A stretch of DNA of 64,000 nucleotides from an uncultured Lachnospiraceae bacterium (GTDB taxonomy: Bacteria; Bacillota; Clostridia; Lachnospirales; Lachnospiraceae). Below the pieces are notes generated by a model, which was given only the letters and a program-made list of their open reading frames with translations, did not search any database and was not told where the DNA came from. Made by a program: the position numbers and the translations under genes. The DNA lies in the NCBI GenBank assembly GCA_902774125.1, contig CACYHD010000002.1:19267-83266 (forward strand), given 5' to 3'. Positions within the stretch are counted from its first letter, which is position 1; each line of letters starts with the position of its first letter. Shown here piece after piece: positions 4,712 through 63,193 of this stretch.

Positions 4712-4798
4712 TTTTTCTCCTTCCGTATACACTGTTCTAACCAAAAATAATTCTTTTCACGTTGGTCTTAAATGTTTCCGTCTCTTAACATTGCTTGC

Positions 4799-39238: not shown

Positions 39239-39308
39239 ATTCTTCTCCTTCAAAAAAGTTATCGCTCATCGCGAAATATTTAATCAGCCCAAACGGGCGT
39301 CTTATTCT

Positions 39309-39860: not shown

Positions 39861-39912
39861 AAATATCTTTTTGAAATATCTTTTTGAAATATCTTTTTGA
39901 AATATCTTATTG
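39861..39912. repeat. 13-bp tandem repeat overlapping the GH16 stop codon
   Basis: Four copies of AAATATCTTTTTG in direct tandem. The last (39900-39912) differs by one base and contains the stop codon and final Gln codon of the GH16 gene. It appears to have grown from the 3' end of the gene, like the repeat at pyrD. Confidence 0.9.
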
Positions 39913-41274
39913 GTATACGCGGACTGAGTCAACGTACATGTAGTCTTCGTATGTTTCAATATTGCCCTGTGTCTTCACATTAGTCCAATATGTAGGTGAC
40001 ACATCTCCACCTAATGTTCCACCAATCGCACAGTTTAATATTAGATAGAATGGCTGCTTGAATGGCCATGCTCTGTTGTCTTCCATATAATTGTCCATTG
40101 ATGAATATACAAGCGGATCATAAACCCATGTTACCTTGCCGTCGATTGTGAACTTAACACCATCGTTTAGCCACTCAATTCCATAAGTGTGGTATGCCTT
40201 TGTTGCATCTGCTACTGTTGTATCAGTGTGCTTGTTACCTGAGTAGTTAGGCAATCCATTATATTTTCCACAGTGAATTGACTGAGGAATTATTGTTTTG
40301 GCCAGCTCCGGAGTTGTCTCAAAAATATCAATCTCGCCGCATGCAGGCCAACTTCCTGGTCCTAACATCCAACCTGCTGCCCATGTACCTCTACCCTTAG
40401 GCATAATAACTTTCATCTCAACCTTGGCGTACTGAACAGAATACTGTCCTTTAGTCCAAATCTTTCCTGAATAGTAAGATTTTTCCACGCCCTTGCGAGC
40501 GTTTTTGTCGTACTTAAATGTTGGAGTAATAACTAGCGCTCCATCCTTAACCTTGCAGTAATCAAGCTGATAGTTTTGGAGTTCATGGTTACCGTAACCG
40601 CCGTCGCCCTTGGCACCTTCATTGTTCCACTTAGTCATGTCAAGCTTGTCGCCATTGAACTCATCATTCCAAACAAGCTTCCATGTTTTTAGTCTGTTAC
40701 TTGCAGGTGACATAGATGCCTTTGTTTTGCTATTACCGATAGCTTTCACCTTATAGTAGACAAAAACACCCTGCGTAATATTTTTATGGTCATAAGATGT
40801 AGCCTTTATTGTTGCTATTTTTTTGAAGCCGCTAGAAGCGTTAGTTGAAAAATACACTTCATACTTTACTGCTCCCTTGGCCTTGGCCCAGCTAACCTTG
40901 GCAGATGTACTGCTAGTTAGAGCTGCTGTAACTTTTTTGACCTTAGCAGGATTTACTGTAACTGGTACTTTCTTCTTGCTCTTCTTTACTTTAATTGTCA
41001 CAGTTGTTTTGCCTGTCTTGAGACCTTTTACCGTAACAATAGATTTTTTGCCCTTTTTGATTTTGGCAATCTTCGCAATCTTTTTGTTGGCAGTTGTTGC
41101 TGTTGCTTTACCCTTAACAACAACAATATCTGTACTTCCAGCAGTCATAGAAAGCTTCTTGCCAAACATGATTTTGACAGCCGCTTCTGTGTCAATAGTT
41201 CCTTGAATCATAACAGTAGTCGCAAACATTGCAAAAGACAAAACTACTGCCGTTAGTGTCTTAATATATTTCAT
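39907..41274 (-). CDS. Secreted GH16 laminarinase (endo-beta-1,3-glucanase), copy 1
   Basis: A 455-residue secreted enzyme. A signal peptide covers about 1-31, then a Lys-rich Ig-like module (to about 110), a fibronectin-III-like domain (115-200) and a GH16 domain (200-455). The catalytic motif EIDIFE gives nucleophile E314, D316 and acid/base E319. WAAGWMLGPGSWPACGEIDI is typical of laminarinase-type GH16. GGAGG lies five bases before the ATG. It is the downstream paralogue of the GH16 gene at 42589-43959. Confidence 0.92.
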   Translation of the reverse strand: MKYIKTLTAVVLSFAMFATTVMIQGTIDTEAAVKIMFGKKLSMTAGSTDIVVVKGKATATTANKKIAKIAKIKKGKKSIVTVKGLKTGKTTVTIKVKKSKKKVPVTVNPAKVKKVTAALTSSTSAKVSWAKAKGAVKYEVYFSTNASSGFKKIATIKATSYDHKNITQGVFVYYKVKAIGNSKTKASMSPASNRLKTWKLVWNDEFNGDKLDMTKWNNEGAKGDGGYGNHELQNYQLDYCKVKDGALVITPTFKYDKNARKGVEKSYYSGKIWTKGQYSVQYAKVEMKVIMPKGRGTWAAGWMLGPGSWPACGEIDIFETTPELAKTIIPQSIHCGKYNGLPNYSGNKHTDTTVADATKAYHTYGIEWLNDGVKFTIDGKVTWVYDPLVYSSMDNYMEDNRAWPFKQPFYLILNCAIGGTLGGDVSPTYWTNVKTQGNIETYEDYMYVDSVRVYQ

Positions 41275-42588: not shown

Positions 42589-43959
42589 TTACTGGTAAAC
42601 TCTTACTGAATCGAAGTATAGATAATCTTCATATGTTTCGATGTTACCATTTGTCTTTACAAGTTTCCAGTAGTCAGGTCCAACATTGCCACCAAGTGTA
42701 CCACCAATAGCACAGTTCATAATTAGATAGAATGGTCTCTTATATGGCCAAATATCATCTAATGAAGTTGGATTTGGATCAAATGTATATTTGGATGGAT
42801 CATAAGTACCATTTAGCTTACCATCAATATAGAATGAAATATGTGTTGGTGTCCATTCAGCTGTATATGTATGGAACGCTGTTGTTGCTGTAGGAACTTT
42901 TGCATCAAAATGCTTTGGTCCAGATGATGTTTTCATTCCATTATATTTCTTACAGTGAATTGTCTGTGGTATACTCTGCTTTAAAGGATCAGAAGTTGTC
43001 TCAAAAACGTCAATCTCACCACAATCTGGCCATCCGCCTGGTCCTAACATCCAACCAGCTGCCCAAGTACCTTTACCCTTAGGCATCTTAGCTGTGAACT
43101 CGATTTTTCCATATGTGAACAAATGGCTTGAACCTCTTGTCCATAGCTTTGTTGAATAATATGAATTAGCAACACATTTTTTCTTAGACTTATCCCACTG
43201 GAATGTTGGCTTAATAACTAGAGAACCATCTTTTACTTCGCAGTAATCCATCTGATAATTCTGTAGCTCGTTATTACCATAACCGCCTGCTCCAGTAGCG
43301 CCCTTATTGTTCCACTTAGATGTATCTAGTGAAGTTCCACTAAATTCATCATTCCAAACAAGCTTCCAAGTCTTAACATATGCTACAGGTGAGTAAGCGC
43401 CCTTAGTGCTCTTGCTTCCAGTAGCTCTAACCTTGAAATAGTATCCTGTTCCAAGAGCTAGATTTGTGTTTTTGAAAGAAGTTGTCTTTGATGTACCAAC
43501 CTTAGCAAATCCTGTTGAAGCGTTTGTTGAACGATAAATTTCGTATCCAGTAGCAGCCTTAGCTTTTGTCCAAGTTAGAGCTGCTGTTGTGTTACCTTCA
43601 AGTTTTCCTTGAATTTCGCTAACCTTAGCTGGATTTACAGTTACAGGAACTTTCTTTTTACTCTTTTTAACTTTTACAGTAATTTTAACCTTACCAGACT
43701 TGTAACCTTTTACTGTAATAGTTGACTGTTTCTTTGTTGCTTTAACTTTTGTTACCTTTGCAATTTTATTGCTTGATGACTTAGCTGTAGCTTTTCCCTT
43801 TACTACAATAATATCTGTAGATCCAGTTGTGATTGTAAGTTTTTTACCAAACTTGATTTTTACAGCTGCCTGTGTATCAACGTTGTTAACAAGTGATACA
43901 GATGCAATCATCACGATAGAAAAAATTACAGATAACAATTTTTTCATTTTTTTCATCAT
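42589..43959 (-). CDS. Secreted GH16 laminarinase, copy 2
   Basis: A 456-residue secreted enzyme with the same order as copy 1: signal peptide (about 1-31), Lys-rich Ig-like module, fibronectin-III-like domain, and GH16 domain. The catalytic motif EIDVFE gives E315, D317 and E320. The start is one of two adjacent ATGs (43959 and 43956) after GGGAGG; an upstream in-frame ATG lacks a site. It follows the permease gene by 49 bases, which hold a hairpin, so it is probably part of the transporter operon. Confidence 0.92.
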   Translation of the reverse strand: MMKKMKKLLSVIFSIVMIASVSLVNNVDTQAAVKIKFGKKLTITTGSTDIIVVKGKATAKSSSNKIAKVTKVKATKKQSTITVKGYKSGKVKITVKVKKSKKKVPVTVNPAKVSEIQGKLEGNTTAALTWTKAKAATGYEIYRSTNASTGFAKVGTSKTTSFKNTNLALGTGYYFKVRATGSKSTKGAYSPVAYVKTWKLVWNDEFSGTSLDTSKWNNKGATGAGGYGNNELQNYQMDYCEVKDGSLVIKPTFQWDKSKKKCVANSYYSTKLWTRGSSHLFTYGKIEFTAKMPKGKGTWAAGWMLGPGGWPDCGEIDVFETTSDPLKQSIPQTIHCKKYNGMKTSSGPKHFDAKVPTATTAFHTYTAEWTPTHISFYIDGKLNGTYDPSKYTFDPNPTSLDDIWPYKRPFYLIMNCAIGGTLGGNVGPDYWKLVKTNGNIETYEDYLYFDSVRVYQ

Positions 43960-43978
43960 ACTACCTCCCGTTGTAATC

Positions 43979-43997
43979 CTCAGGCGGCCTAAGCCGC
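43979..43997 (-). promoter_or_regulatory. Intergenic GC-rich hairpin between permease and GH16
   Basis: GGCGGC and GCCGCC around CTAA form a strong short hairpin just past the permease stop. It lacks a U-run on the minus strand, so it fits RNA processing or stabilisation better than termination. Confidence 0.55.
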
Positions 43998-44008
43998 CTT
44001 CAGCATTT

Positions 44009-44962
44009 TTATTCACCAGTAATACCTGTGTTTTCGATACCCTGAATGAATTGTTTCTGAACTAATGCATATAGAATTAATAGCGGTAAGATTGAAATCA
44101 ACGTAGCTGCCATTCGCTGCGCTTCATTGACTGCTGTTTCCGCACCACCAGTACTGTTACTATACAATGTCAACTGACTAGGTATAAGTTCTACAGCACT
44201 TCTAAGCATAGTGTTAGTTGTATATGTTTCATTCCAGTTAAATACGAATGAGAACAAGAATACAACTAAGATTGTTGCAGCTGATAATCTAATAGCAACG
44301 TGATAGAACACCTTCATTGAACCTGCTCCGTCGATCATTGCTGCTTCATCTAATGACTTAGGAATCATATTGAAGAAGTTATAGAAAATCAAAACTAACA
44401 TTGTTGAATATGTACCTTGGCCTAGGATTGCCATTACAATCTGAGGAATTGGTGTACCAATTAACTGAATTCCTGTTAATGTCTTGAATGATGTAAAAAT
44501 CATAAGACGAGGAACTGTTAATAGTGGTATAGGTAGAATAAATGCAAGTATAAGCATTACAAACCAAACACCTCTACCCTTGAATGTATATCTTGATAAT
44601 GCAAATCCTGTTGTAGCCGACACCGCTGTTTGTCCTATAGCAAGTATTCCTGAGAATATTATAGAACCAAAAAGTGATGTAGGTATGTCGAGGGTTTTGA
44701 TTGCGCTACCAAAGTTATCAAAAGTAGCGTGCTTAGCAATCCATGTAATAGAAGGATCAATCAAGTCCTCAGTTGTCATAATTGACTTAGAAATCATCTC
44801 AAAAATAGGATTTAAGTATACATATCCGATACAGATAAGTAGGAAATAAATTGCTATTTTTGCAATAATGTTTACTAATTTTAATTTTTTGAATTTGGCA
44901 AAGTTAAAGTTTTTGATAAATGACAAAACTGAATTCTTTGCACTAGTTATTTTATTTGCCAT
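44009..44962 (-). CDS. Sugar ABC transporter permease, MalG type (pair 2)
   Basis: A 317-residue CUT1 inner permease with six membrane segments. The EAA loop ...SLDEAAMIDGAGSMKVFYHV contacts the ATPase. The start at 44962 is set by AGGAGG, which lies within the end of the upstream permease gene, giving an 11-base overlap. It pairs with the MalF-type gene upstream. Confidence 0.92.
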   Translation of the reverse strand: MANKITSAKNSVLSFIKNFNFAKFKKLKLVNIIAKIAIYFLLICIGYVYLNPIFEMISKSIMTTEDLIDPSITWIAKHATFDNFGSAIKTLDIPTSLFGSIIFSGILAIGQTAVSATTGFALSRYTFKGRGVWFVMLILAFILPIPLLTVPRLMIFTSFKTLTGIQLIGTPIPQIVMAILGQGTYSTMLVLIFYNFFNMIPKSLDEAAMIDGAGSMKVFYHVAIRLSAATILVVFLFSFVFNWNETYTTNTMLRSAVELIPSQLTLYSNSTGGAETAVNEAQRMAATLISILPLLILYALVQKQFIQGIENTGITGE

Positions 44963-46190
44963 ATAACTTCGCCTCCTTCTTCTGATGTCTCTTCTGAGCA
45001 GCAAGTCTTCTCTTCTGCTGCTTCTCTAGTTTCTTAAGTTTCTTCTCCTGCTTCTGTCTAGCCTTGATGTCCTTAGGTTTTCTATCTCTGAACAACAAGA
45101 ATACAATACCGATTATGATCAACGCCACGAAGGAATAAATCCATGCGTACGTTGCGGCGAATCCCAAACCACCGTTAGTATCCTCAGTAGCCTTTTCAAT
45201 CAATTCGTAAACAGGGTTGATTGAATCATACATACCTAACTGGATAACTGTAAATACAGTGATGATAAGTCCGATTGACTTAAGCATTGGAATTGTAATC
45301 TTCCACATAATCTGCCATGCATTAGCAGAGTCGATCTTAGCAGCTTCATAAATACTTGGGTTAATTTTCTGCAAACCATTGATAAATAGTACAATAGGGA
45401 TTCCAGTAAACCAAAGTATAATTGACAAGTGATCAAATATTCCCGCAAGACCTGATGCTAATCCTGGAGAGTAGCTCTCAATAATCTGCATAATGAAAAT
45501 ATTTGAGTAAGCGTTTGTACTAATTGCTTCTGCTGAAGCTTCAGCTGTACCTGCTGACTGTACTGTCAAAATCTGGCTCATAACCGGACCTGACATAATG
45601 ATAACTGGTAGGAAATAGATTGTTCTTAGAATTCCCTTACCAACGTTAATCTTACATAGCAAGTAAGCGATAATAAATGACAATACTACTACGATAAACG
45701 CATATGGAATAATCATCTGTAAGTAACTAAGCAACGCAGCTAAGAATTTTTCGTTCTTGAAGAATGCTGTGTAGTAGTTGCTAACACCGTTCCATTTGAT
45801 ATCGTAACCAAAAATAGTTGATTTTACGTTTGTAAAACTTAAGTAAATTGTCATGATGAATGGAAATGCTGTAAACACTAGGAAACCAATAATCCATGGT
45901 GCCATAAATGCATAACCTGTTCTGTTCTGACGCTGTTGATAAGTTTTAAGCTTTTTCTTCTTTCCTGAAGAAGCTCTCTTGGCTTCTTTATCGGCAGCCT
46001 TTTTAAGTCTTGCCTCATACTTAGCTTTTTCTTTCTTATCCTGTGCATCAATTTTGGCCTGCTGCTTTGGTGTGGAAGCAACACGTGTTCTTTTAGCTTC
46101 TGCCCTTTTCTCTGCTTTTACTTCTCTAGCAGCTTCTTTTTCAACTTTAGTAAGTCTCTTTTTCTTTGGGGCTTTTTCTTTTTTAGCCAT
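44952..46190 (-). CDS. Sugar ABC transporter permease, MalF type with basic tails (pair 2)
   Basis: A 412-residue CUT1 permease. Six membrane segments span about residues 90-365, with an EAA-like loop (NPSIYEAAKIDSANAWQIM). Unusual are an N-terminal 85-residue and a C-terminal 45-residue tail made almost only of Lys, Arg, Ala, Glu and Gln, both predicted cytoplasmic. Family members are normally about 290-320 residues. The stop and the upstream gene show a one-base overlap (TAATG). Confidence 0.9.
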   Translation of the reverse strand: MAKKEKAPKKKRLTKVEKEAAREVKAEKRAEAKRTRVASTPKQQAKIDAQDKKEKAKYEARLKKAADKEAKRASSGKKKKLKTYQQRQNRTGYAFMAPWIIGFLVFTAFPFIMTIYLSFTNVKSTIFGYDIKWNGVSNYYTAFFKNEKFLAALLSYLQMIIPYAFIVVVLSFIIAYLLCKINVGKGILRTIYFLPVIIMSGPVMSQILTVQSAGTAEASAEAISTNAYSNIFIMQIIESYSPGLASGLAGIFDHLSIILWFTGIPIVLFINGLQKINPSIYEAAKIDSANAWQIMWKITIPMLKSIGLIITVFTVIQLGMYDSINPVYELIEKATEDTNGGLGFAATYAWIYSFVALIIIGIVFLLFRDRKPKDIKARQKQEKKLKKLEKQQKRRLAAQKRHQKKEAKLYGK

Positions 46191-48688
46191 TATTTAACAC
46201 CCCCTTCCACAACAATTGCGCTCTGAGCGTTAACGCTCTTGCCTTTTACAGTAACTTTATCGTTAGTGTAGTTGATAATTACTGTTTTCTTATATCCGTC
46301 TTTTTCGTACTCGTTGGCGATAACACCGTCTTCAAGTACTGTTCTGTTAGTCCACTTGAATCCGCTAACGTTCTTCAATGTGTCATTAACAGTATTATAA
46401 ATTGTTCCAATCAACTTCTTGTACTGAGTAAACTCTGTTGAATAGTAATCAGCAGATGTTGTAGCAGCCAACAAGTATGAAGGCTTCTTAGTCAATACAA
46501 ATGATGGTGAAAGGTTGTAGTCTATCATCTTAAGCATATCTGCCTTAGAGTAGAATGAGAAGTTAGAATATGGAGCATATACTTCCATAGTTCCGCTTAG
46601 TACCATCTGTAGGAAAGGTACTGTATCTGTCTCATATACATACTGAGATGTGCCTACCATAGACTGCAAATATCTATCTGTGTATTTCCACAAATACTGG
46701 TTAGGATTAACCATGTTGAGTTTTACATCCTTATGAATATCTGCAAATACATTGCCAAACATCTTGATTGCCTCAGGTGCTGTTGTAGAACCACTGTTTG
46801 AATAAGTAGTTACTAGCTTGTTAGAAATACCTGCTACAGTAAATGACTTAGCGTACTCTTCAATATCCATATCATCATACAAGTCTTCAATCCATTCAAC
46901 ACTGCTTTCAGGTGTAGCATAACCAAACTCTGAAACAGGTACATTCTTAGGAAGAATTTCTGACTTATCTAACTCTAAATATTTAGTGTTCAAGTGACTT
47001 GCAGCTGTCTTGTAATATCCAACCATATCCTCATTGATCAATGAGAAGTCTCTTGAGAATGATACATCAATATCCTTCTTAGCGAAGTTAGTCATAAGGT
47101 CTTCGAACTCACCCTTTGAACCTACAGCTGAAGAAATGCTTGTGCTGTTAGGCTTAGCAAGTGTCTCACCCTTATTCTGCCAACCAATCAATCCTGAATT
47201 GATGTTCTTAACACCGTTTTTGTTTAATGTGTCAATAATGTTTTTGACATCATCACATGATGTAACTTCTACTTCCTGAGTAGAGAAAACACCCTTCTTA
47301 GAATCTGACATTAGGAAGTCAATTCTAATAGGAACATCTCCACTTGTGCTAACGTTTTCTTTGAGGATTTTCTCATCGATTAGATGTTGCTTGTAAGCCT
47401 TAGCCATACCAACATAATCTGCTGATGGTGTTCCGTCGCTTCCGTCACCACTTAGGAAATCATAAGTAATATCTACATCAAACTTATTAGCTGTATCCTG
47501 TACCTTACGATAAGAATCGCCTGCCTGGTTTGTTACCTGGAAGAATTCTGAGTTGTAAGTAAATGATGGATAAGCATAAGTATATTTGATCTTATTCTTT
47601 TCAGTTGATGATGGTACTACATTGATTTTCATGTACTCGTCGCCGCCATCAGCGTATGCAACGAATGCTGCCTGTGTTCCATCACCGTGACTGATACCAT
47701 ATACTGGCATTGTTGGACTACTTAGAGGAACAGCATCATTAAGCTTTTCCTGATAGTACATATTTGTTGCAGGATCTGCACCATATACGTTTCCTTCGTA
47801 GTCTGAGAACTTAGCTTTGTTTTTCTCGAATCTCATCAAAGCACCACTTCCGTCTGGTACCAAAACGTAACCAGGTGTAAGTGTCTTAGACTTGATTGTT
47901 GTCCAGTCTTCTTCTGCCTTGTTGTATACCTTAATGGCACCACCGCTGGCTCCGAGGAATGGAGTAACTACTAAACTCTTAACTTTGGCAAGTGACTTGC
48001 CTTTAATATCATCTTCCATTTCTTTTTGAGGAACCTTATAGTTGATTGTTCCATCTTCGCCGAAAGTGATATATACGTTCATTGTTACGTTGCCTTCATC
48101 AACTTTGAACTTACATTTAAGTTTGAACTCATTAGATTTAACTTTTGAAAGTGTTGATGAACCATCTCTAGCAACTTCTGCTGCAGATGAAACTCTAGAT
48201 GTTGACATACCTTCACCTGAACCCTCGTAGTACTCAAGTGTAATAAGTGAATTAGCCATAGCAGTAAACATTGAGTTAAGGCTATCCTCCTGAGGAGTGT
48301 TTGCTAACTCTTTGGCTTCATCTAGTGAAATTTCTTCATCTTCTGCATATTGCTTTAATGTCTTTTCGTTTTCTGCCTCTTTGGCAGCCTTGATGTCCTT
48401 ACTGAAAGGAGCATCAACACCAGTCTTCCATACGTAACCATTGTTTTTGTCCTTGATAGCGATAATATCTCTATCTTCTCTCCAATAGTATTCGTACTTG
48501 CCTGACTGATAAATTTTATTGTAGCCCTTCTTGCTTATCTCAAGTTTCTCAGAAACCTTTTCAGGTGCCTTACGAGTATCTCTGTTTGTGTTTAGATAAG
48601 CTGCTGCTACAGCTACTGTAACGGAAAGTAGGCCTAAGATGACAACAACGCTAACTGTTTTTTTGATAATTCTAGCCGCCTGTGACAT
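46190..48688 (-). CDS. DUF5696-type membrane-anchored extracytoplasmic protein
   Basis: An 832-residue protein with one N-terminal membrane segment (about 11-32), the rest extracytoplasmic. It shows the DUF5696-like pattern known from Firmicutes sugar ABC operons. Parts such as GYVLVPDGSGALMRFEKN and PVYGISHGDGTQAAFVAY suggest a beta-rich N-terminal region and a C-terminal barrel-like region as in glycosidase-related folds, but I cannot name catalytic residues. It overlaps the upstream NHL/Yip1 gene by 17 bases, with GGAGG inside that gene. Expected role: glucan handling or support of the transporter. Confidence 0.7.
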   Translation of the reverse strand: MSQAARIIKKTVSVVVILGLLSVTVAVAAAYLNTNRDTRKAPEKVSEKLEISKKGYNKIYQSGKYEYYWREDRDIIAIKDKNNGYVWKTGVDAPFSKDIKAAKEAENEKTLKQYAEDEEISLDEAKELANTPQEDSLNSMFTAMANSLITLEYYEGSGEGMSTSRVSSAAEVARDGSSTLSKVKSNEFKLKCKFKVDEGNVTMNVYITFGEDGTINYKVPQKEMEDDIKGKSLAKVKSLVVTPFLGASGGAIKVYNKAEEDWTTIKSKTLTPGYVLVPDGSGALMRFEKNKAKFSDYEGNVYGADPATNMYYQEKLNDAVPLSSPTMPVYGISHGDGTQAAFVAYADGGDEYMKINVVPSSTEKNKIKYTYAYPSFTYNSEFFQVTNQAGDSYRKVQDTANKFDVDITYDFLSGDGSDGTPSADYVGMAKAYKQHLIDEKILKENVSTSGDVPIRIDFLMSDSKKGVFSTQEVEVTSCDDVKNIIDTLNKNGVKNINSGLIGWQNKGETLAKPNSTSISSAVGSKGEFEDLMTNFAKKDIDVSFSRDFSLINEDMVGYYKTAASHLNTKYLELDKSEILPKNVPVSEFGYATPESSVEWIEDLYDDMDIEEYAKSFTVAGISNKLVTTYSNSGSTTAPEAIKMFGNVFADIHKDVKLNMVNPNQYLWKYTDRYLQSMVGTSQYVYETDTVPFLQMVLSGTMEVYAPYSNFSFYSKADMLKMIDYNLSPSFVLTKKPSYLLAATTSADYYSTEFTQYKKLIGTIYNTVNDTLKNVSGFKWTNRTVLEDGVIANEYEKDGYKKTVIINYTNDKVTVKGKSVNAQSAIVVEGGVK

Positions 48689-50738
48689 TTCTTATTACCT
48701 CCTTTCCAACTGTTACTAAGAAATCTGATAGCTGATCCCACATGATGAGAACAACTAATACTACGATTGCAGCAATCAACATAAATACTGCTGTAATGAT
48801 CAAGCTGACTACAGTTCTACCGAACTCATAATCATGTACTGTAGCTAGTCCCTCGAATATTGTAGCGATTGACCAAACAGTACCAACCATCATAATTACT
48901 GTTAGTATAAATGCTTCGTTATATGTTAATACGTAAGATGCTCCAATTGTAATAACCATTGAGAACATTACTGGCATTAAACCATATGCTGGAATCATAA
49001 ATACTTGCTTTAATGTACCGTCACCATCTGTGATACTTGTTACTAAGTAGTTACAGATAATGAATAGAATCAAAATAGCAAAGAAACCAACGATTACAGC
49101 ACCCATATCCATATCTTCAACGTCTGTGTACTGATAAATGAATCCCTTACCAGTTTGATACCACATATAAACACCGAAGAATACAACATATATAATCAAT
49201 GCTGCTAGTGGTGAACCGTGCTTATTAACCTTGATATCATAATATCTGTCGATTGGATGTCTTGCACATTTGAACGCATATCCGATTTCGCTAAGCACTG
49301 GCACCTTGCCAAGTTTCTTATATAATGATTTTCTCTTCTTTTTGAACTTACCTTTTCTATCAAAAATGCTGAATGCAATCTTCAATACGATAAGAATCAA
49401 AACACAAATTAGGAATGGTCCTAAATATTTTTGAATAGCTTTATTTCTAACTTCCCAGAAGGCATCTGAGTAACCAGCTCTGTTACCGGCAATCTCGAAG
49501 TCCTTCATAGCCTTAGAATACTTTTCATCGTTAAGGTATGCCTTGGCAACACCGTTGTGAGCTAGCACAGACATCTGGTTAAGTCTTAATACGTAACTCC
49601 AATTAGCTAGAGCCTCGTCATAATTACCTTTCTCGTATTCCTTAAGGGCGTGGAAAATAGTTGTAGCATACTCTGTTGGGATGAAAGATTGTAGATAACC
49701 TTTCTCGCCGTCTGCTGTCCAAATATTTCCTTTGTTATCAACAGCAATTGTTACTAATGATTTGAACAAACCTGAAACGTCAAGGTCACTTACCTGTGCA
49801 CCGAAGCTAAAGATTAGTTCGCCTTCTCTTGTGTACACATTGATGAAACCGTCAGTATCAGATGTGTAGATAATTCCGTCTCCATCAACCCAAACGTCTG
49901 TCATGTTTTCTGTACATACAACAGGGTTTGTGAACATGTTAGATCCATTAGTACTATGTTTCTTAAGAAGATCTTCACCCTCACCCATACATACTGAGTA
50001 AGCTGCACCGTGAACATCTACAAAAACATTTGAGAATGTTGTTGGTGTTGTGTTAAGAAGCGCTGAATTCTTTTCCTGCTCCTTAGTGTAAATCATCTTT
50101 AAGAACACCTGCTGAGGTGTTAGCACAGTTTTATTAGAAGCAAAGTATCCTAGGAATTCTCCTGTTTTTGCCAACTGAATAATACCATTGTAAACACCTT
50201 CTGAAACGATATATAAGTTGTCACCACTGTCGATAGCAACTTTGATTGGCTCGTAGTTAGTATCGGCAAAAATAGGTGCGTCTGGCTTATCATAACGTCT
50301 TTCGTAATTCAAATCCTTGTCGAATTTGAATACTGTTTTGGCGCCAGTATCTGCTACGTATAGCTCACCGGCATTTGTTAGGAAGAGACCCATTGGCTGA
50401 TTAAATCCTGAGAATCTCTTATCCTTAACTGTGTCTTTGGAAATTTCTTTTACAACCTTTTCCTTGTCTAGGCTGTAAATAAGAACTCTACTGTTACCAG
50501 TATCAGAAATGTATGCATTGTTGTCCTTGTCGATGAACATATCAGAAGCATTAGATAGTCCAATGCCTGTAATAGTTCTATCTGGCAAATATGCATCCTG
50601 TGTTCTTACATACTCGCTCTCATCATCAAGAGTGTATGTATAACTTGTCGCCTGTGAAGCTGACACTGATATAACACTCATTATCACCATGGCTACTGCA
50701 AGGAGCAGCATAGATGATTTCTTTAGTAAACCTTTCAT
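48672..50738 (-). CDS. NHL-repeat / TPR / Yip1-domain membrane protein
   Basis: A 688-residue protein. After a signal peptide (about 1-27) come NHL-type repeats (about 55-370; DNNAYISDTGNSRVLIYS is a clear one), a short TPR-like helical stretch (380-440), one membrane segment (about 445-465), and a C-terminal Yip1-like region of about five segments. The NHL propeller would lie outside the cell. It sits between permease pair 1 and the DUF5696 gene, with GGAGG before the ATG, and so belongs to the transporter operon. A sensing or scaffold role is inferred. Confidence 0.78.
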   Translation of the reverse strand: MKGLLKKSSMLLLAVAMVIMSVISVSASQATSYTYTLDDESEYVRTQDAYLPDRTITGIGLSNASDMFIDKDNNAYISDTGNSRVLIYSLDKEKVVKEISKDTVKDKRFSGFNQPMGLFLTNAGELYVADTGAKTVFKFDKDLNYERRYDKPDAPIFADTNYEPIKVAIDSGDNLYIVSEGVYNGIIQLAKTGEFLGYFASNKTVLTPQQVFLKMIYTKEQEKNSALLNTTPTTFSNVFVDVHGAAYSVCMGEGEDLLKKHSTNGSNMFTNPVVCTENMTDVWVDGDGIIYTSDTDGFINVYTREGELIFSFGAQVSDLDVSGLFKSLVTIAVDNKGNIWTADGEKGYLQSFIPTEYATTIFHALKEYEKGNYDEALANWSYVLRLNQMSVLAHNGVAKAYLNDEKYSKAMKDFEIAGNRAGYSDAFWEVRNKAIQKYLGPFLICVLILIVLKIAFSIFDRKGKFKKKRKSLYKKLGKVPVLSEIGYAFKCARHPIDRYYDIKVNKHGSPLAALIIYVVFFGVYMWYQTGKGFIYQYTDVEDMDMGAVIVGFFAILILFIICNYLVTSITDGDGTLKQVFMIPAYGLMPVMFSMVITIGASYVLTYNEAFILTVIMMVGTVWSIATIFEGLATVHDYEFGRTVVSLIITAVFMLIAAIVVLVVLIMWDQLSDFLVTVGKEVIRNVTGG

Positions 50739-50748
50739 ATGTGCCTCC

Positions 50749-51618
50749 TTACTTAATACCTGAACTAGCCATAGTGTTCATAACCTTAGACTGCATTGCG
50801 ATGAAGATAACTAGGGTAGGAATAAACATAATTAAGTTCGCCGCTGCTACCATACCGGCTGCAGACATTGCGTTATTAACACCGATGGAGTTAACGTAGT
50901 ATGTCAATGTTCTTAATGCTTCGTTTGTAATATAGTTGTTGGACGTTTCCACATTGCCCCAAACCTGCTGGAATGTCAAAACGACTGATGTAGCTAGGGC
51001 TGGCTTTGTTAGTGGAATAATAATCTTTCTAAGGATTGTTATATCTCCAGCACCGTCCACTACTGCTGCCTCTATTAGCGCATCTGGAATGCCGTCTACG
51101 AACTGTTTAACCAAGAATAAGCCTACTGGCATCGCTATTAGAGGTAAAATGTGTGCAAACCATGTGTTGTATGCACCTACATTTACGATAATCAAGTATC
51201 TTGGAATTGATACGGCTGTTGCTACGAACATTAGGGCCATCTGGTTGATTTCCCATAGAGCGCCGCTGGCTTTGAACTTTTTCTTAGAGAAAACGTAAGC
51301 AGCCATAATTGTAATGATTAAGTTAAGAACAACTGTTAATACTGTTACAATTAATGAATTCAAGAAATATCTTGACATTGGAATACCTGTTGAACCTGCT
51401 AAGTTCAATAGGTTTTTAAAGTTGTCTAAAGTCGGATTATATACGAACAAACTTGGAGGGAACTTGAACAATTCGCCTAGAGGCTTGAACGCATTACCAA
51501 TTAAGAATACTACCGGGAGAATCATAAATACTGATAATGGTAATGATATAACATGGAATTTAATCTGACTTTTTGAAAATCTTGATGGATTAATTCTATT
51601 ACCTTGAAAATTAGCCAT
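50749..51618 (-). CDS. Sugar ABC transporter permease, MalG type (pair 1)
   Basis: A 289-residue CUT1 permease with six membrane segments and an EAA loop (IPDALIEAAVVDGAGDITIL). GGAGG precedes the ATG. It is 14 bases after its MalF-type partner and ends ten bases before the NHL/Yip1 gene. Confidence 0.93.
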   Translation of the reverse strand: MANFQGNRINPSRFSKSQIKFHVISLPLSVFMILPVVFLIGNAFKPLGELFKFPPSLFVYNPTLDNFKNLLNLAGSTGIPMSRYFLNSLIVTVLTVVLNLIITIMAAYVFSKKKFKASGALWEINQMALMFVATAVSIPRYLIIVNVGAYNTWFAHILPLIAMPVGLFLVKQFVDGIPDALIEAAVVDGAGDITILRKIIIPLTKPALATSVVLTFQQVWGNVETSNNYITNEALRTLTYYVNSIGVNNAMSAAGMVAAANLIMFIPTLVIFIAMQSKVMNTMASSGIK

Positions 51619-51632
51619 TTATATCCTCCTTT

Positions 51633-52574
51633 CTAATATTCATCTTTTTCTGTAAATAGATTATTTGCTACCTTACTACATACCCATACTAGACAGAGCA
51701 ATGCAACTGATACAGCTGAGGCGTATCCCATTTCGTAACGTACATAAGCGTAGTCATCGATATGGTTAGCAATTAGCTGACCGGCATAGTCTGGTGTTGG
51801 GTTCGCACCTGCTAGGGAAACACCGATCCAACCCATGTTGAAGGCGTTTACGATAGACATAACGGCACCAAATAACATCTGTGGTTTCATTGATGGCACA
51901 GTAATGTAAATAATTTCCTGTGCTCTGTTTTTGATTCCGTCCACATATGCAGCTTCGTATAATTCTTGATCGATGTTCATGATACCTGAGAGCATGGACA
52001 AGAAGCCGATACCCATTGATGACCATAACGATACAAAAATCATAATTTGCATAAAGTAGTCAGAACTAATCAACCATTGTACTGGTTGGTTGATAAAACC
52101 AAGTTTTTGCAAATAAGCATTAGCAAGACCTGACTGGTCACCTGAGAAGATTGTCTTCCAAATAACCTGAATCATAAGCATACCAACCATTGAAGGTGTA
52201 TACATTGCTAGTGCATAAATTGTTCTAGCACGTGGTGTAACCTGAGCCAAAACCCAAGCCATGATAAATGATAGAACATAACCACCAACACCTACTACGA
52301 TAGCGTAGAGAATTGTGTTAGGTAAAACGAATTTCATAAATACTTCATCGCCTGTAAGCAATGTGATGTAGTTATTCATACCTGCAAAAGAAGGAGTGTT
52401 AATTACATCAAAGTAAGTAAATGATAATCCTATAGCGATAACGATAGGAAGTAAAATAAATGAACAAAACATTATCGCATAAGGTAGTAATAATGCAAAA
52501 GATCTAAATCCGTCTGTTTTTAGCGGATTATGTCTTTTTTTGCTTACGCTGTTTACAGCAACTGCCTCTGCCAT
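51633..52574 (-). CDS. Sugar ABC transporter permease, MalF type (pair 1)
   Basis: A 313-residue CUT1 permease with six membrane segments and an EAA loop (DQELYEAAYVDGIKNRAQEI). Unlike the pair 2 MalF it has no long basic tails. The start ATG shares one base with the stop of the large substrate-binding protein gene (TAATG), so translation is coupled. Confidence 0.93.
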   Translation of the reverse strand: MAEAVAVNSVSKKRHNPLKTDGFRSFALLLPYAIMFCSFILLPIVIAIGLSFTYFDVINTPSFAGMNNYITLLTGDEVFMKFVLPNTILYAIVVGVGGYVLSFIMAWVLAQVTPRARTIYALAMYTPSMVGMLMIQVIWKTIFSGDQSGLANAYLQKLGFINQPVQWLISSDYFMQIMIFVSLWSSMGIGFLSMLSGIMNIDQELYEAAYVDGIKNRAQEIIYITVPSMKPQMLFGAVMSIVNAFNMGWIGVSLAGANPTPDYAGQLIANHIDDYAYVRYEMGYASAVSVALLCLVWVCSKVANNLFTEKDEY

Positions 52575-55500
52575 TATTTTTTACCTCCTTTCGCCTTATC
52601 TTTGTTAGCCTGAATCCAATCATAACCGCGAAGTTTGAACTTCTTGATCATCTTGCCGTCGGCATTGTAATATCCAAGCTCCTGCATCTTACGAACAATC
52701 TCTTTGTTAACATCAGACTTAGCTTCGTCTACAGCAACCTGTGCAGATATACCGTCGAATACCATTGATGTCCAAATGTTAGAAATAGTTCTCTCTAGTA
52801 GATACTGACCTGGAGTTCTTGTTACGTCAGTTACGTACTGAATCTGATCCAATACGATGTTTTTGTCTTTCTCATCCATTGAGTTATTTCTTAGGGCATC
52901 CATATTAGCTGATAACCAGAAATATGTCTTCCCGTATGATGAGCGAAGTGTGTAACTGTACTCTGTCTGAACGTCTGTGCTTGTCCACCATTTTAGGAAG
53001 TCCCAAGCAACATCTTTTTTGTCAGAAGACTTGAAGATAACACCACCAGTACCGTTAGCAACGAATGTTCTGTTAGTTGTTCCGTCTTCCTGTACTGTTC
53101 CGATATATGGAGCGATTCCCCACTTACCGTCTAACTCCATAGCACCGTTTTTAATTAGAGTGTAATCTTCCATACCGATGATACCGATTGGAAGTACTGA
53201 GTATCTAAACGAGTTAAAGAATGTGTTAACACTAGTCTGTAGTGAGTACTTAGTGAATAGGTCGCCTAGGAACTGTAGTCCCTTAACAGCCTTCTTAGTA
53301 TCAACACCAGTTGTTACAAGTCCCTTGTCATCCTGAACATATAGTGAACCACCATTCTGTAGCACCATAGGAGCTGTCTGGTAGAACCACTTGTATCCTG
53401 TAGCACCAAGTGAGATGTTGTGATAGAAGTTCATACCGTATCTCTGTAGAGTAGGCAAAATATCTATTAGCTCATCCCAGTTATCAGGAACTTCTAGTCC
53501 TAACTGTTTGAAAATATCTTTTCTATAAACTACTGCATTAAAGTCTGTTGTTTCTGGAATAGCATACATTCCCTCGTTATATACGTATGATACGAATGCA
53601 CCTGTTGGGAATCTGTTAGCTACCTGCCAGAAGTCATCGAACTTAGACAAATCATACAAAGCACCACGGCTTGATAAGTCAAATGGTACGTATGACATTA
53701 ATCCAAGGGCAACGTCTGGAGCTTCATCTGCTGCGATAGCAAGTGTTAGCTTGTTAACGTCAGGCATTGCTGCGATTTGAACTTTAACGTCCTTGCCATA
53801 TTTTTCTTTGTAATACTGCTTGAATTCTGTATCAGCCATTTTCTGAAGTAAGTCTACGTGAGTGATAGCTCTGTTAACCCAAATTGTAAGTGTTTCTGGA
53901 TCGTTAGCAGCTCCTGTAGAATACTTGCTAGATGTAAATGTGTTAACAAGTGATCTGATACCTGTCCACAATGCGCCACCAGCACTTGGGTTGGCTTTGC
54001 CGATTTCATCTTCATCGCCGATTACATAAATTCTATCAAGAATAAAATCATTAGATGTTACTTCTGTTGTGAAGTTACTTAATGATACAAGTACTGAGTT
54101 ATCAGCACCAGTCAAATCTGTTAAGTGAAGAGCAATATCATCTGGATATTCTTCCATAATATCAATGTACTCTTCAGCTTCATCTAAGTAAGTAAGTACA
54201 GCGCCGGCATTACCGTTGTCTGAGTAATCCTGAAGCATAAATCTAATATGCTGAATAACTGTCTCGTATGCCTCTAAGTACTTAGCCACATTAGGGATGT
54301 ACTTAGTCATCTTCCAGTTACGGTTCTCATCCGCTTCCTTACCTGTGATCTTAGTAATTTCCAATTGGAAGTTTGTTACATGCTGTTCAATAAGTAGGGC
54401 ATATCTATAAGCTTCCATAATAGGTGAGTTTTCCTGTTTGATAGTAATAGTATGCTTACCCTTTGTTAGATAGAAGTTATATTTTTTGCCATCCTTGTCA
54501 GACAAAACTTCGTTGGCATATCCTGATGATGTAGCATCAAACTGATAGTTGTACATCTCAGCAAATGGAACTTCGCCATCTAACTTGATTGTCTCAAATG
54601 TAACAAATTCTTTTTTGTTGTTTTGATAATGGAAAGCTAGGTTGTAATTACCAGTTTTCTTAACGTCAATTGTGTAATTAACTTCAATACCTGCTTCCTT
54701 CCAGTTCAATGTATTAAGCTTTTCTGTATCTATATTGAATCGTGTAAGTGAATCCTTAGCAACTGAGCCATAAATAGCATCTGTTGAGTTCTTACTTGAG
54801 TAGTAAACTGCGTCAACCTGTAACTGAGCATCCTTGTCTGTTACAAGCTTTTCGCCTGAATGCTTCTTAGCATACTCCTTGTAAGACTTAACATTTTCTT
54901 TTGCTGCCTCAGCCTTAATCTGACCTAATGCCAAACCACTTGATGATACGTTCGTAATCTCAATCTTGTTAGAACCCTTCTTTAGGTAAAAACAAAGAGG
55001 AGTTGTTGAAGTATATGTGTTGTTGTATAGATATACACTAGCCCATTCTTGGATTTTATTTTGGCTTGGAGCCATCTCATCGCCATAGCTATCTACTGGG
55101 AACTTCTTCTTATCAGAACTACTTATAAAGTCCTGCTTTCCTGAGTCATCCCAGTTAACACGCATTGAGATTGTATTCATTTCTGTATAATCCTGCTTAC
55201 CGTTAACTGCTACGCTAACTGTATAATCTGACAAAGATTCGCCAGCAGAAATATAATCAACGTTTAGATAATACAATCCTTCCTTGGCAACAGAAACATC
55301 ATAGACTGCCTTGTCTTGGTAATCCAAGTCTTTCATGTCATGCTTATAGTTAGTGATAGCTTTTGGCGCATTCTTTGTTTTTGCAGCGTAGTCCTTAGTA
55401 GAAACTCCGTCTTTAATCTGCGCTGTTGCTGTACCTTCACCAATCTTCTTTTCGGCTGCAATAAAATCTGAGTAGTAAACTTCAGCCTTCTCGCCTTTTT

Positions 55501-55663
55501 TCAAATAAGATTCGTTGAGTAACTTATAAGCAGCCTTGAAATCACTCTGACTTACGTCTTTGATATATTCTGGCTCTGTCTTCAAAATAACTCCAAAAAG
55601 TAGAGCGCAACCACCAGCTACAACAGCTATTGCAACTAATATGCTAATAAGTTTTGTTTTCAT
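52574..55663 (-). CDS. Extra-long substrate-binding protein with N-terminal carbohydrate-binding-like domains
   Basis: A 1029-residue surface protein; typical family 1 substrate-binding proteins are 400-450 residues. It has an N-terminal membrane segment or weak lipobox (VAGGC near 16-20), two beta-sandwich domains (about 95-260 and 280-430), a helical connector (about 440-560), and a type I substrate-binding domain (about 590-1029; DEAPDVALGLMSYVPFDL, ETTDFNAVVYRKDIFKQLG). GGAGAA precedes the ATG. The added sandwich domains probably bind polysaccharide so that products are captured close to the permeases of pair 1. Confidence 0.85.
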   Translation of the reverse strand: MKTKLISILVAIAVVAGGCALLFGVILKTEPEYIKDVSQSDFKAAYKLLNESYLKKGEKAEVYYSDFIAAEKKIGEGTATAQIKDGVSTKDYAAKTKNAPKAITNYKHDMKDLDYQDKAVYDVSVAKEGLYYLNVDYISAGESLSDYTVSVAVNGKQDYTEMNTISMRVNWDDSGKQDFISSSDKKKFPVDSYGDEMAPSQNKIQEWASVYLYNNTYTSTTPLCFYLKKGSNKIEITNVSSSGLALGQIKAEAAKENVKSYKEYAKKHSGEKLVTDKDAQLQVDAVYYSSKNSTDAIYGSVAKDSLTRFNIDTEKLNTLNWKEAGIEVNYTIDVKKTGNYNLAFHYQNNKKEFVTFETIKLDGEVPFAEMYNYQFDATSSGYANEVLSDKDGKKYNFYLTKGKHTITIKQENSPIMEAYRYALLIEQHVTNFQLEITKITGKEADENRNWKMTKYIPNVAKYLEAYETVIQHIRFMLQDYSDNGNAGAVLTYLDEAEEYIDIMEEYPDDIALHLTDLTGADNSVLVSLSNFTTEVTSNDFILDRIYVIGDEDEIGKANPSAGGALWTGIRSLVNTFTSSKYSTGAANDPETLTIWVNRAITHVDLLQKMADTEFKQYYKEKYGKDVKVQIAAMPDVNKLTLAIAADEAPDVALGLMSYVPFDLSSRGALYDLSKFDDFWQVANRFPTGAFVSYVYNEGMYAIPETTDFNAVVYRKDIFKQLGLEVPDNWDELIDILPTLQRYGMNFYHNISLGATGYKWFYQTAPMVLQNGGSLYVQDDKGLVTTGVDTKKAVKGLQFLGDLFTKYSLQTSVNTFFNSFRYSVLPIGIIGMEDYTLIKNGAMELDGKWGIAPYIGTVQEDGTTNRTFVANGTGGVIFKSSDKKDVAWDFLKWWTSTDVQTEYSYTLRSSYGKTYFWLSANMDALRNNSMDEKDKNIVLDQIQYVTDVTRTPGQYLLERTISNIWTSMVFDGISAQVAVDEAKSDVNKEIVRKMQELGYYNADGKMIKKFKLRGYDWIQANKDKAKGGKK

Positions 55664-55711
55664 TGTCGTTCTCCATTCTTTTTAGATTATTTCTTTATTT
55701 ACAGCGTAAAA

Positions 55712-55742
55712 GCGGAACCATCAGTATTTGTGACAGTTCCGC
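55712..55742 (-). promoter_or_regulatory. Hairpin between the two substrate-binding protein genes
   Basis: GCGGAAC and GTTCCGC (55712-55718 and 55736-55742) form a stem followed on the minus strand by UUUUA. It may act as a partial terminator so that the first binding protein is made in excess over the transporter. Confidence 0.55.
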
Positions 55743-55823
55743 AATCACGTTTAAGTTTTCTTAAGCTTAATCTTAATTATGATTAGTATTATTAACTCTC
55801 GCTTAATCTACCTACGGACTGCT

Positions 55824-57497
55824 TTATTTAAAATCAGCGTCTGTCTTTCCGTAGTATTTCTTAAGAGCTTCTTTGAATGTTGCCTGAGCCTTGTCAATTC
55901 TCTTGTTGATTGTTTCTGTCCAGTCAGCAAGTTTTGATTTAACTTGGTCTCCCCAGTTCTTGTCTGTCATCCAAGCACCAGCTACATCCTCGCTGTTGCA
56001 GTTACGCCATTCGAATAGTGTATCCTTATCTTCACCATTCTCCTTAACTGTCTTAGTCCAGCACTTGTCGATGTAATCCCAAGACTTACCTTCCTTAAAT
56101 AGCTTAACTACCTTCTGGAAGCCCTTCTTGTCTTTGTATACTTTGTGAGCTGGATGGCTATTCCAAATATCCATCTGGTCATTGTATGCATCACCAGTTA
56201 CAACTGGGAATGAATCGTTAGCAGCTGAATTCTTCTTAGCGCCGTTTTCTGTCCACTTCTGATCAAATACAGCCTGCTTAGCTTCTGTTGAAGCTGTCAT
56301 ATATGTAGCATATGTATAAGCTAGGTCTAACTTAGCTTTTTCTTTCTTGCTCCAGTCGTTGTTTCCATCGTCAGCTGCGTAGTTGTGTAGAGCGATTGGG
56401 TCTACTACAAGTCTGATGCAGTTGTCATTGTACTCTGTTGATGGGAATGGATAGAAGTCCCAATCAGTTGAGTTGATGTAAACACCTGAGTCCTTAGCAG
56501 AATCATCAGCACCAGCTGTTAGATACCAAGGATCTTCACAGTTAACAAGTGTTCTGTTGTTACAGAAGAATGACCATGAGTAACCTTTGTTCTCTTTTGC
56601 AATATCTGCTGAAAGCTCTTCCTTACCCATTGCTGTATCAATTGAAGCTGCAGCAATCTTTGTAAGGTATTTTAGCATTGACTTAACCTGCTCGTTGTTA
56701 AGGTCAATTGAATTTTCTTCCTTAATCTGCTTGTTGATTGTATCAACACCCATGTTTACGATATCAAGTGGTCCGTGACCGTCGTGACCTGCTGGGTCAG
56801 TAGCGGCATGCTTGATACCCCAGAATGTCTTGTTGTCGCCCTGTGAAATGAAATCAACGAACTCGTCGATTGTCCAGTCTTCACTAGGAACGTCAATGTT
56901 GTTCTTTGTTGCCAAAGCTTTGTTAATCCAAATACCCCATGGAATTGAGTATGATGGAAGTGCAGCCTGCATTCCATAATAGTTCATGTTGTCCATAAGA
57001 CCTTTGTTGTAAGCCTTGTATGAATCTTCTTTCTTATATACTGATAGGTCAGCTACAAGACCTTTTTCGATGTCTGCGCAAAGATCTGTAACGCCCCAGA
57101 TATCAGGATACTTACCGTGGTCAGCCTTGAAGTTTTCCATTTCCTGTGACCAAGAAGGTGTTCCTGGCTGGTTAGGATCTCCTGACTTAGCCCAAAGGTT
57201 AATCTTAACATTTGGGTAATGTTCTTTAAATGCCTTTGCTACAGCGTAGTGCTGTGCAAGAGTTGATGAAGTTAGTTTGCTAGGGCTGATGTCCTGTCCA
57301 CCAAGATCTTCATAATACTTGCTGTCTCCGCCCCATGTCATAATGTCGATGCTACCTTTAACATCTGTGTCTACCAATCCACTTTCCGCTGCTGGATCAG
57401 TAGCGCTTCCACCGCCACAACCTGTGAATGTTAATGCAGACACTGCTAAAACACCTGCAAGCATTACAGATAATGACTTACGTCCAAATTTTTTCAT
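55824..57497 (-). CDS. Lipoprotein sugar-binding protein of a CUT1 transporter
   Basis: A 557-residue substrate-binding lipoprotein. The signal peptide ends in a lipobox with Cys27 (LTFTGC), followed by a short Gly/Ser/Ala stretch. IDIMTWGGDSKYYEDLGG, WIDEFVDF-like helices and PLAL-type loops fit large (about 500-residue) binding proteins of oligosaccharide importers. AGGAGG-type sequence precedes the ATG. It is the first gene of the transporter cluster and has the strongest promoter match there. Ligand is inferred to be beta-1,3-gluco-oligosaccharides. Confidence 0.9.
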   Translation of the reverse strand: MKKFGRKSLSVMLAGVLAVSALTFTGCGGGSATDPAAESGLVDTDVKGSIDIMTWGGDSKYYEDLGGQDISPSKLTSSTLAQHYAVAKAFKEHYPNVKINLWAKSGDPNQPGTPSWSQEMENFKADHGKYPDIWGVTDLCADIEKGLVADLSVYKKEDSYKAYNKGLMDNMNYYGMQAALPSYSIPWGIWINKALATKNNIDVPSEDWTIDEFVDFISQGDNKTFWGIKHAATDPAGHDGHGPLDIVNMGVDTINKQIKEENSIDLNNEQVKSMLKYLTKIAAASIDTAMGKEELSADIAKENKGYSWSFFCNNRTLVNCEDPWYLTAGADDSAKDSGVYINSTDWDFYPFPSTEYNDNCIRLVVDPIALHNYAADDGNNDWSKKEKAKLDLAYTYATYMTASTEAKQAVFDQKWTENGAKKNSAANDSFPVVTGDAYNDQMDIWNSHPAHKVYKDKKGFQKVVKLFKEGKSWDYIDKCWTKTVKENGEDKDTLFEWRNCNSEDVAGAWMTDKNWGDQVKSKLADWTETINKRIDKAQATFKEALKKYYGKTDADFK

Positions 57498-57550
57498 TCT
57501 TTTATCCTCCTTATGATTTGTTGAAAAAATTCACTTACATAAGAAAATCC

Positions 57551-57602
57551 TCATAGTGATATTCCTATGACAAATTTTAACATAGCGATAGGTTAAATTC
57601 AA
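57551..57602 (-). promoter_or_regulatory. Promoter and operator-like inverted repeat of the transporter cluster
   Basis: TTGAAT (57597-57602) and TAAAAT (57574-57579) lie 17 bases apart on the minus strand. Just downstream, at about the predicted transcription start, is a 20-base inverted repeat with TCATAG and CTATGA arms (57551-57556 and 57565-57570) and an ATAT centre, in a position where a repressor would block transcription. Confidence 0.55.
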
Positions 57603-57650
57603 CAAAAAATAAACAAAAACAACCCATTTTTTTATACAATTTTCACAAAC

Positions 57651-57680
57651 AAAAAAGAGATGCATAAGCATCTCTTTTTT
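57651..57680. terminator. Terminator after the surface carbohydrate-binding protein gene
   Basis: AAAAAAGAGATGC and its complement form a 13-bp stem around ATAA, with A- and T-runs on both sides, so it can work in both directions. It lies 18 bases past the stop. Confidence 0.88.
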
Positions 57681-57698
57681 TATTAAATGAAACTAATA

Positions 57699-58523
57699 TT
57701 ATTCAGCTTCTCTTCTTCTTGTGAATACAACGATTACTGCTGCTGCAACTACTGCTGCTGCGCCAAATACGATTGGCTCGAAGTCGCCTGTTGCAACTGT
57801 TGTGTTAGGATCTGATACTGTGTTGCCAGCATCTGGTGTAACTGTACCGTTGTTGTTAGGATTTACAACGTTACCGCCACCTGTGTTAGTGTCAGTATTA
57901 CCAGTACCACCGTTAGATGGTGTTGAAGCGCTAACTTCCTCTAGTGAGAATCCTGTACACTTGATTGTTGTCTTGTGCTCTGCTGAGTAGTCAGAAGGAA
58001 GTCTTCCGTCTAACTTCTTGTTAGGAGCGTATTTATATCTAACCTTAGCATCCTTATCTGTTGCAACGCCAGCTCTGTCACCGAAGTCACCACCTACTGC
58101 GAAGTAGATTGAGTTAGCATTGTACTTAGCTGTGAATGTCTTGTTGATTGAAACTGACTTACCTTTCTTGCAGTCAACCCACTGACCTAGGTTCATCTGT
58201 GATCCTGTTTCATTACCAATCTTGATGTAAACCCACTTATCAAAAGCTGAAGATGAAAGAGTACATTTTAGTGTGTACTTCTTACCTTTTACGATGTTCT
58301 TCTTCTGGCTGATCTGGCCACCCCAGCAGCCGCCCCATCCGATTGAAAGAATGTTACATGTCCAACCTGAAGCGTTGCCTGAGAACTTAGCTTCTGTTCC
58401 TTCGTACCAACCTGAGTTAAGACCAAAATAAGTCTTCCATGAAGCAGCTGATACTGTTGATACTGTACCAATAACTAGTACAAGCGCAGCTGTTAAAGCT
58501 ACAATTTTCTTCATCATTTTCAT
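57699..58523 (-). CDS. Cell-surface carbohydrate-binding protein with C-terminal membrane anchor
   Basis: A 274-residue secreted protein. A signal peptide (about 1-26) is followed by one CBM4/9-like beta-sandwich (about 30-205), a Gly/Asn/Thr-rich linker, and a C-terminal anchor of one hydrophobic segment and an RRR tail. VATGD just before that segment looks like a non-canonical sortase signal (compare LPxTG). AAGGAGG precedes the ATG at a nine-base gap. Its own promoter and terminator make it a separate unit. I infer it holds glucan at the surface for the adjacent transporter. Confidence 0.72.
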   Translation of the reverse strand: MKMMKKIVALTAALVLVIGTVSTVSAASWKTYFGLNSGWYEGTEAKFSGNASGWTCNILSIGWGGCWGGQISQKKNIVKGKKYTLKCTLSSSAFDKWVYIKIGNETGSQMNLGQWVDCKKGKSVSINKTFTAKYNANSIYFAVGGDFGDRAGVATDKDAKVRYKYAPNKKLDGRLPSDYSAEHKTTIKCTGFSLEEVSASTPSNGGTGNTDTNTGGGNVVNPNNNGTVTPDAGNTVSDPNTTVATGDFEPIVFGAAAVVAAAVIVVFTRRREAE

Positions 58524-63168: not shown

Positions 63169-63193
63169 AATAAACCTCCAAAAAATCTTATTC

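Follow-up and report, generated by a model that had tools for sequence, protein, structure and literature searches.

We analysed a 64,000-nucleotide stretch of DNA (hereafter the window) from an uncultured Lachnospiraceae bacterium (assembly GCA_902774125.1, contig CACYHD010000002.1, positions 19,267 to 83,266), in which an operon probably encodes an enlarged CUT1-type ATP-binding cassette (ABC) sugar importer, comprising two permease pairs (f–g and F–G), a tethered long binding protein (B), a lipoprotein (S), and two dedicated additional proteins (Y and D). The source genome is 1.9 Mb in 86 contigs with a completeness of 92.7%, and its nearest relatives are Lachnospiraceae assemblies, several of ruminant gut origin.

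The genes of the operon and the one preceding it all lie on the minus strand. According to the list of open reading frames (ORFs) and the Pfam matches, they read 5′ to 3′ as a 274-residue surface protein, S (55824..57497), B (52574..55663), f (MalF-type permease 1; 51633..52574), g (MalG-type permease 1; 50749..51618), Y (48672..50738), D (46190..48688), F (MalF-type permease 2; 44952..46190), G (MalG-type permease 2; 44009..44962), and a GH16 glucanase (42589..43959). A reading made earlier from the sequence alone (the sequence-only reading) had placed two MalF/MalG pairs around Y and D, with binding proteins in front and GH16 last, and both ORFs and Pfam agree with it, F being assigned weakly, by family. 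It also had starts and stops overlapping or nearly touching from 44009 to 55663. This holds for the seven genes from B to G, which are separated by gaps of 14 and 10 nucleotides or, at the remaining joints, overlap, and is to be corrected at the last two starts. The best start of G, judged by its ribosome site, is the ATG at 44962 (the listed ORF extends to 45004), and the start of GH16 is more likely the ATG at 43959, after GGGAGG (the listed ORF extends to 44016), so that GH16 and G do not overlap.

The seven-gene module is widely conserved

In a phylum survey of 398 sampled genomes, at most three D candidates and two Y candidates were scored per genome, and copy numbers are therefore lower bounds. 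D, taken as a DUF5696 match above 300 bits, is present in 37 genomes from 15 families and 20 genera, with two more genomes passing the cut-off weakly; DUF5696 exceeded the cut-off in none of 14 control genomes outside the phylum. The Y profile matches 68 of the 398 genomes at E 1e-15, of which 38 match strongly (E<1e-50) and the other 30 over part of the NHL region only. The 38 strong-Y genomes include every one of the 37 D genomes; in the extra one (G243), the gene is partial and lies at the end of a contig. The largest number of module copies seen in one genome is at least six.

The composition of the module was examined by a six-frame search for the gene classes in 107 loci plus the window (108 loci), which were picked for having D and therefore show what accompanies D, not how common D is. 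All seven classes are found in 92 of the 108 loci, and every one of the 15 families has at least one such locus. Eight of the 16 incomplete loci are cut by contig ends (L007, L008, L110, L122, L130, L138, L140, and L147), and the other eight hold Y-D-F-G only, among them four with little contig upstream (L076, L081, L084, and L093). D, F, and G occur together in 105 loci and the remaining three end at contig ends; in the two loci lacking Y, the contig starts within D. NCBI annotates the genes in identical order in Butyrivibrio fibrisolvens D1 and on Paenibacillus cellulosilyticus plasmids. In seven loci B-f(-g) is placed behind G, the sole layout seen in families f59, f106, and f132, and in L156 g follows S instead of f, having moved within the cluster. 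Y-D-F-G thus looks like a core, with B-f-g as a second block. A second MalG-like permease within 10 kb on the same strand was found for 14 of 14 MalG-like matches inside D loci versus 12 of 135 outside them (seven genomes; 149 of 171 matches used, the search profile itself having been built from D loci).

In sum, the module is well supported as a real and widely conserved grouping. Whether such genes occur together elsewhere was the check named with the sequence-only reading, and rarity was not seen among the sampled genomes. The same reading had suggested that the Yip1 and DUF5696 proteins (Y and D) are working parts, which is very likely, because the two are conserved just as consistently as the second permease pair (37 of 37 genomes).

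Both permease pairs keep the coupling loop

Pfam identifies BPD_transp_1 in f (5.1e-13), g (8.8e-12), and G (2.4e-10). F has no Pfam match and weak NCBIfam permease matches (best 2.4e-5), and is a member of a permease family of 107 ORFs in which the coupling loop is kept. By column counts, the glutamate of the EAA loop is present in 96 of 96 f, 97 of 98 g, and 107 of 107 F proteins, and the 105 G proteins have 94 Glu, 9 Asp, and 2 Asn. The acidic residue that follows is kept in all four families, as is the next loop glycine in f, g, and G, F having serine in 10 of 107. A narrower EAA pattern, which tolerates too little variation at its Ala and Pro positions, matches 93/96 f, 98/99 g, 72/107 F, and 75/105 G. 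Both pairs therefore have the MalF/MalG-type permeases with an EAA coupling loop that define CUT1 systems, and since all four permeases keep this loop, each pair should, judging by these residues, couple to an ATPase.

The sequence-only reading had found no ATPase gene in the window, and a pattern search likewise detected no ORF there with Walker A and LSGGQ motifs; such ORFs are present in 3 of the 108 loci, and in P. cellulosilyticus ugpC lies directly upstream of the module. For transporters of this type, it is normal that the ATPase is encoded elsewhere, as far as the available text of two reports goes (PMC12838199, PMC12710961). The one TOBE_2 match in the source genome is a UgpC-type ATPase on another contig (G000:C33; NF008653 500.6 bits against a cut-off of 432), and we infer that this unlinked ATPase serves the operon. 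Contig C65 encodes another MalF-type permease together with its binding protein.

The binding proteins and Y

B has about 1000 residues and is membrane-anchored, with a long N-terminal half joined to an extracytoplasmic sugar-binding protein of the CUT1 kind (SBP_bac_1 at residues 605–899, 4e-26 in Pfam, with matches to maltose-type binding proteins). CBM_35 similarity is present in the N-terminal half of 23 of 49 B homologues (E<=0.1, best 2.8e-8) and was not found at E<=0.1 in the window's own B. S, a lipoprotein solute-binding protein of 557 residues, is an ORF with a lipobox (TGC) and belongs to a class found in many loci; it has no match of its own in the Pfam scan.

Y comprises a signal peptide, an NHL propeller, TPRs, and a Yip1 membrane domain. 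The Yip1 domain (PF04893) scores 60.3 bits against a curated cut-off of 28.6, Pfam finds NHL, with TPR below the cut-off, and the family profile matches beta-propellers and TPRs in the PDB. The window's Y has six hydrophobic segments towards its C-terminus. Among the 106 loci with Y, it is split into two ORFs in 56, annotated by NCBI in B. fibrisolvens as an NHL repeat protein and a YIP1 family protein, and is a single ORF in 50, of which a few are truncated; because the halves are fused in these 50 loci, they belong together.

D is a remote relative of GH129 glycosidases

D matches DUF5696 (PF18952) at 459.2 bits, against a curated cut-off of 25.6, and an N-terminal hydrophobic segment, which is the anchor in the window's D, is present in 97 of 106 D proteins, with a lipobox in 18. 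Relatives of D match DUF5696 along with GH101, GH129, or DUF6259 models. A PDB search with the single sequence gave nothing useful; the family profile matched the GH129-like DagB (5opq, 7.2e-14), 8rzg, and the GH129 enzyme NagBb (5wzn, 2.7e-10), and the matches to NagBb and DagB cover most of D. Aligned by hhalign with a GH129 profile (eight proteins, 56–76% identical to one matching NagBb at 2.3e-266), the D profile gave 586 columns at E 1.7e-20, probability 99.3 and 12% identity, whereas Y, as a control, gave E 0.61 against the same profile. On these profile comparisons, a remote relationship of D to GH129-type glycosidases over its full length is well supported.

The catalytic acids of NagBb are Asp330, Asp435, and Glu478, the second being the one named in the available text of PMC5698469. 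In a joint alignment, the columns of Asp330, Asp435, and Glu478 hold all three acids in 8 of 8 GH129 rows. The operon D proteins keep them in 2, 19, and 16 of 62, respectively; none of the 62 has all three together, and the window's D has none of them. Nor is any Asp or Glu invariant across these 62 proteins, the nearest being an acidic column at window D position 723 (Asp or Glu in 60 of 62). Unlike NagBb and DagB, D thus lacks the conserved catalytic acids and sits in a permease operon together with Y. The comparison shown here indicates that D descends from a GH129-like glycosidase and has lost the catalytic acids. Because no D protein keeps all three, it is probably a dead glycosidase that has been retained as part of the transporter, the loss of activity being moderately supported.

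Two shorter DUF5696-like proteins do keep all three acids (L176 622-2355, L198; L177 179-1978, L199). Both lie outside the module, with no Y, F, or G nearby, and L198 has an ordinary MalFG-like (f-g-like) pair behind it; these proteins may form a bridge from the enzyme to the transport part.

Cargo and flanking features

The glucan importer proposed in the sequence-only reading fits this window and does not extend to the module at large. From the genes nearby, the cargo here looks like beta-1,3-glucan, because GH81, two GH16, and GH161 proteins are encoded, all on the minus strand. The GH81 protein (23067..30269; 2400 residues; Glyco_hydro81C 2.5e-43), which carries five F5/8 type C matches and Big domains, is possibly the main outer beta-1,3-glucanase. 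The GH16 glucanase of the operon (2.6e-17) is accompanied by a second one (39907..41274; 2.5e-14). The GH161-type beta-1,3-glucan phosphorylase (36059..39253) is assigned by its full-length similarity to the GH161A structure 9qqk (E 1.9e-246, residues 13–1061 of 1064), Pfam alone giving a weak GH94 match. A phosphoglucomutase-type gene near the operon (61435-63222) could use the glucose 1-phosphate from GH161.

GH161 is present in 7 of the 108 loci, namely the window, five close relatives, and L166. Beside the module elsewhere, the matches listed include GH30, 42, 43, 26, 28, 10, 67, and 3, melibiase, alginate lyase, and fucosidase, and CBM65 proteins in 12 of 71 (the scan covered 150 of 213 same-strand neighbours of at least 380 residues, and the commonest 25 families of each scan). 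Because these enzymes differ between loci, the module appears to be shared and the enzymes exchanged. At L197, on a P. cellulosilyticus plasmid, the module adjoins ugpC and genes for several LLM flavin-dependent oxidoreductases, a hint that something other than plain plant glycans is carried there.

At the 5′ end, the first gene (57699..58523) encodes the 274-residue secreted protein, with a C-terminal membrane segment, no match in the Pfam scan, and homologues in L002, L003, L004, and L006; it is possibly a surface carbohydrate-binding protein. Because a terminator-like hairpin (z −6.4, fold versus shuffles) separates it from S, this gene is probably a transcription unit of its own. Between S and B, a minus-strand stem-loop at 55690..55780 (z −5.6; none of 200 shuffles equally good) is a possible attenuator or mRNA stabiliser, and S may be differentially expressed. 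Another terminator-like hairpin lies 3′ of GH16 (42571-42547, minus strand). Further away, at 1523-4744, the window encodes a 1073-residue protein with Peptidase_M64 and CBM_6 domains.

Proposed mechanism and alternatives

In the proposed importer, GH81 and GH16 would cut beta-1,3-glucan outside the cell, and the resulting oligosaccharides would be caught by B and S. With the presumed sidedness of Y and D, D would lie on the outer face and, as a dead glycosidase, hold or orient the chain at the mouth of F/G, whereas Y would be the scaffold joining D and the permeases, with its propeller and TPR parts outside and Yip1 in the membrane. Both permease pairs would be driven by a shared ATPase, and the chains would be phosphorolysed inside by GH161. 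A role in export or envelope assembly was dropped given the binding proteins and MalFG-type permeases.

The pairwise distances of the seven genes co-vary over 88 loci (r 0.86–0.95). Copies within a genome do so too (r 0.90–0.98; 29 pairs in 13 genomes), and species descent is therefore not the cause there. Over the 88 loci, the values are 0.954 for f-g, 0.948 for Y-D, and 0.92–0.95 among Y, D, F, and G, and those of f or g with Y, D, F, or G are 0.86–0.90 (0.87 for f-D). One may go further and picture B, f, g, Y, D, F, and G as one physical machine, in which two ABC cores stand side by side, held by a Yip1/TPR/propeller scaffold, with glycan threaded by the dead glycosidase and with enzymes and binding proteins swapped for new sugars; we regard this extension as tentative and on the doubtful side. 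Several observations weigh against the importer as proposed. B is about equally close to both blocks (r 0.91–0.93), the nearest neighbour of D is shared by another gene in only 36–50 of 88 loci, and joint inheritance is no proof of a complex. The window's F is among the 10 of 107 with serine for the loop glycine. For D, the identity to GH129 is just 12% and the catalytic columns could therefore be misaligned, and Asp is present at the Asp435 column in 19 of the 62 proteins, Glu at the Glu478 column in 16, and both in 3.

These last points bear on the alternative that D remains active, as an exo-glycosidase whose catalytic residues have shifted and which trims oligosaccharides at the surface before uptake, making the system an importer with a built-in enzyme. 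Its full-length similarity to GH129-like enzymes and the near-universal acidic column at position 723 are in its favour, as is DagB, a beta-sandwich, TIM barrel, and C-terminal immunoglobulin-like domain protein that, in the available text of PMC5698469, shares Asp435 with NagBb, works without the other NagBb catalytic residue, and uses partly different acids, so that loss of this residue alone is not proof of inactivity. We nevertheless consider an active D unlikely, as 43 of the 62 proteins lack Asp at the very column common to NagBb and DagB, no acid is invariant, and D stays constant although the operons adjoin enzymes for different sugars. Alternatively, the operon may combine two CUT1 transporters of the ordinary sort, each for a different chain length, with Y and D as a substrate sensor or permease regulator outside the transport path. 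The coupling loop in each pair, the separable B-f-g and Y-D-F-G blocks, and the two or more binding proteins in several loci would all suit such an arrangement, yet Pfam and NCBIfam scans reveal no known signalling domain in Y or D, and F-G follows D in every locus but the three cut at contig ends, which makes it rather unlikely. Least probable, in our judgement quite improbable, is a transferable operon of co-inherited genes with two physically uncoupled pairs: the nearest D lies in a different genome for 31 of the 32 loci of multi-copy genomes, as expected of a moving or early-duplicated block, but the composition is kept across 15 families and only 12 of 135 other MalG-like genes have a second one within 10 kb. 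The enlarged importer with dedicated Y and D thus remains the reading we favour.

Relation to known systems and implications

The SusCD-type systems of Bacteroidetes have surface glycan-binding parts fixed beside the transporter and varied enzymes, and are TonB-driven in a Gram-negative envelope. The module resembles them in its fixed surface parts and varied enzymes; the proteins differ, the module being of the ABC type. Closer to it is Athe_0595-0598 of Anaerocellum bescii, a CUT1 system that similarly has two binding proteins, MalF/MalG permeases, and a shared MsmK-type ATPase encoded elsewhere, but one permease pair instead of two, with Yip1 and NHL absent from the available text (PMC12838199). 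The GH161 beta-1,3-glucan utilisation clusters likewise combine GH161 and GH16 with ABC genes for beta-1,3-gluco-oligosaccharides, mostly lacking an ATPase gene; Yip1, NHL, and DUF are not in the available text, a comparison by text alone, as the figures could show a twin pair (PMC6484121). A word search found no Yip1 in the main text of these two reports or of PMC10318527, PMC12827396, PMC12710961, PMC8579813, and PMC4765114. The literature searched, which covered few subscription papers, yielded no mention of DUF5696 and, among the matches listed, no description of an operon with Yip1, NHL, PF18952, and permeases; such an enlargement of a CUT1 importer is apparently undescribed so far.

The reading of D as a dead glycosidase provides a testable function for DUF5696, and the fixed gene set makes the question of two cores testable in laboratory strains. 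If the one-machine reading is true, the module would be the Gram-positive equivalent of SusCD, and both DUF5696 and a bacterial Yip1 protein would acquire a function in transport. Because the module is present in 37 of 398 genomes, with up to six copies scored in one, a sizeable part of the sugar taken up by these bacteria may pass through it.

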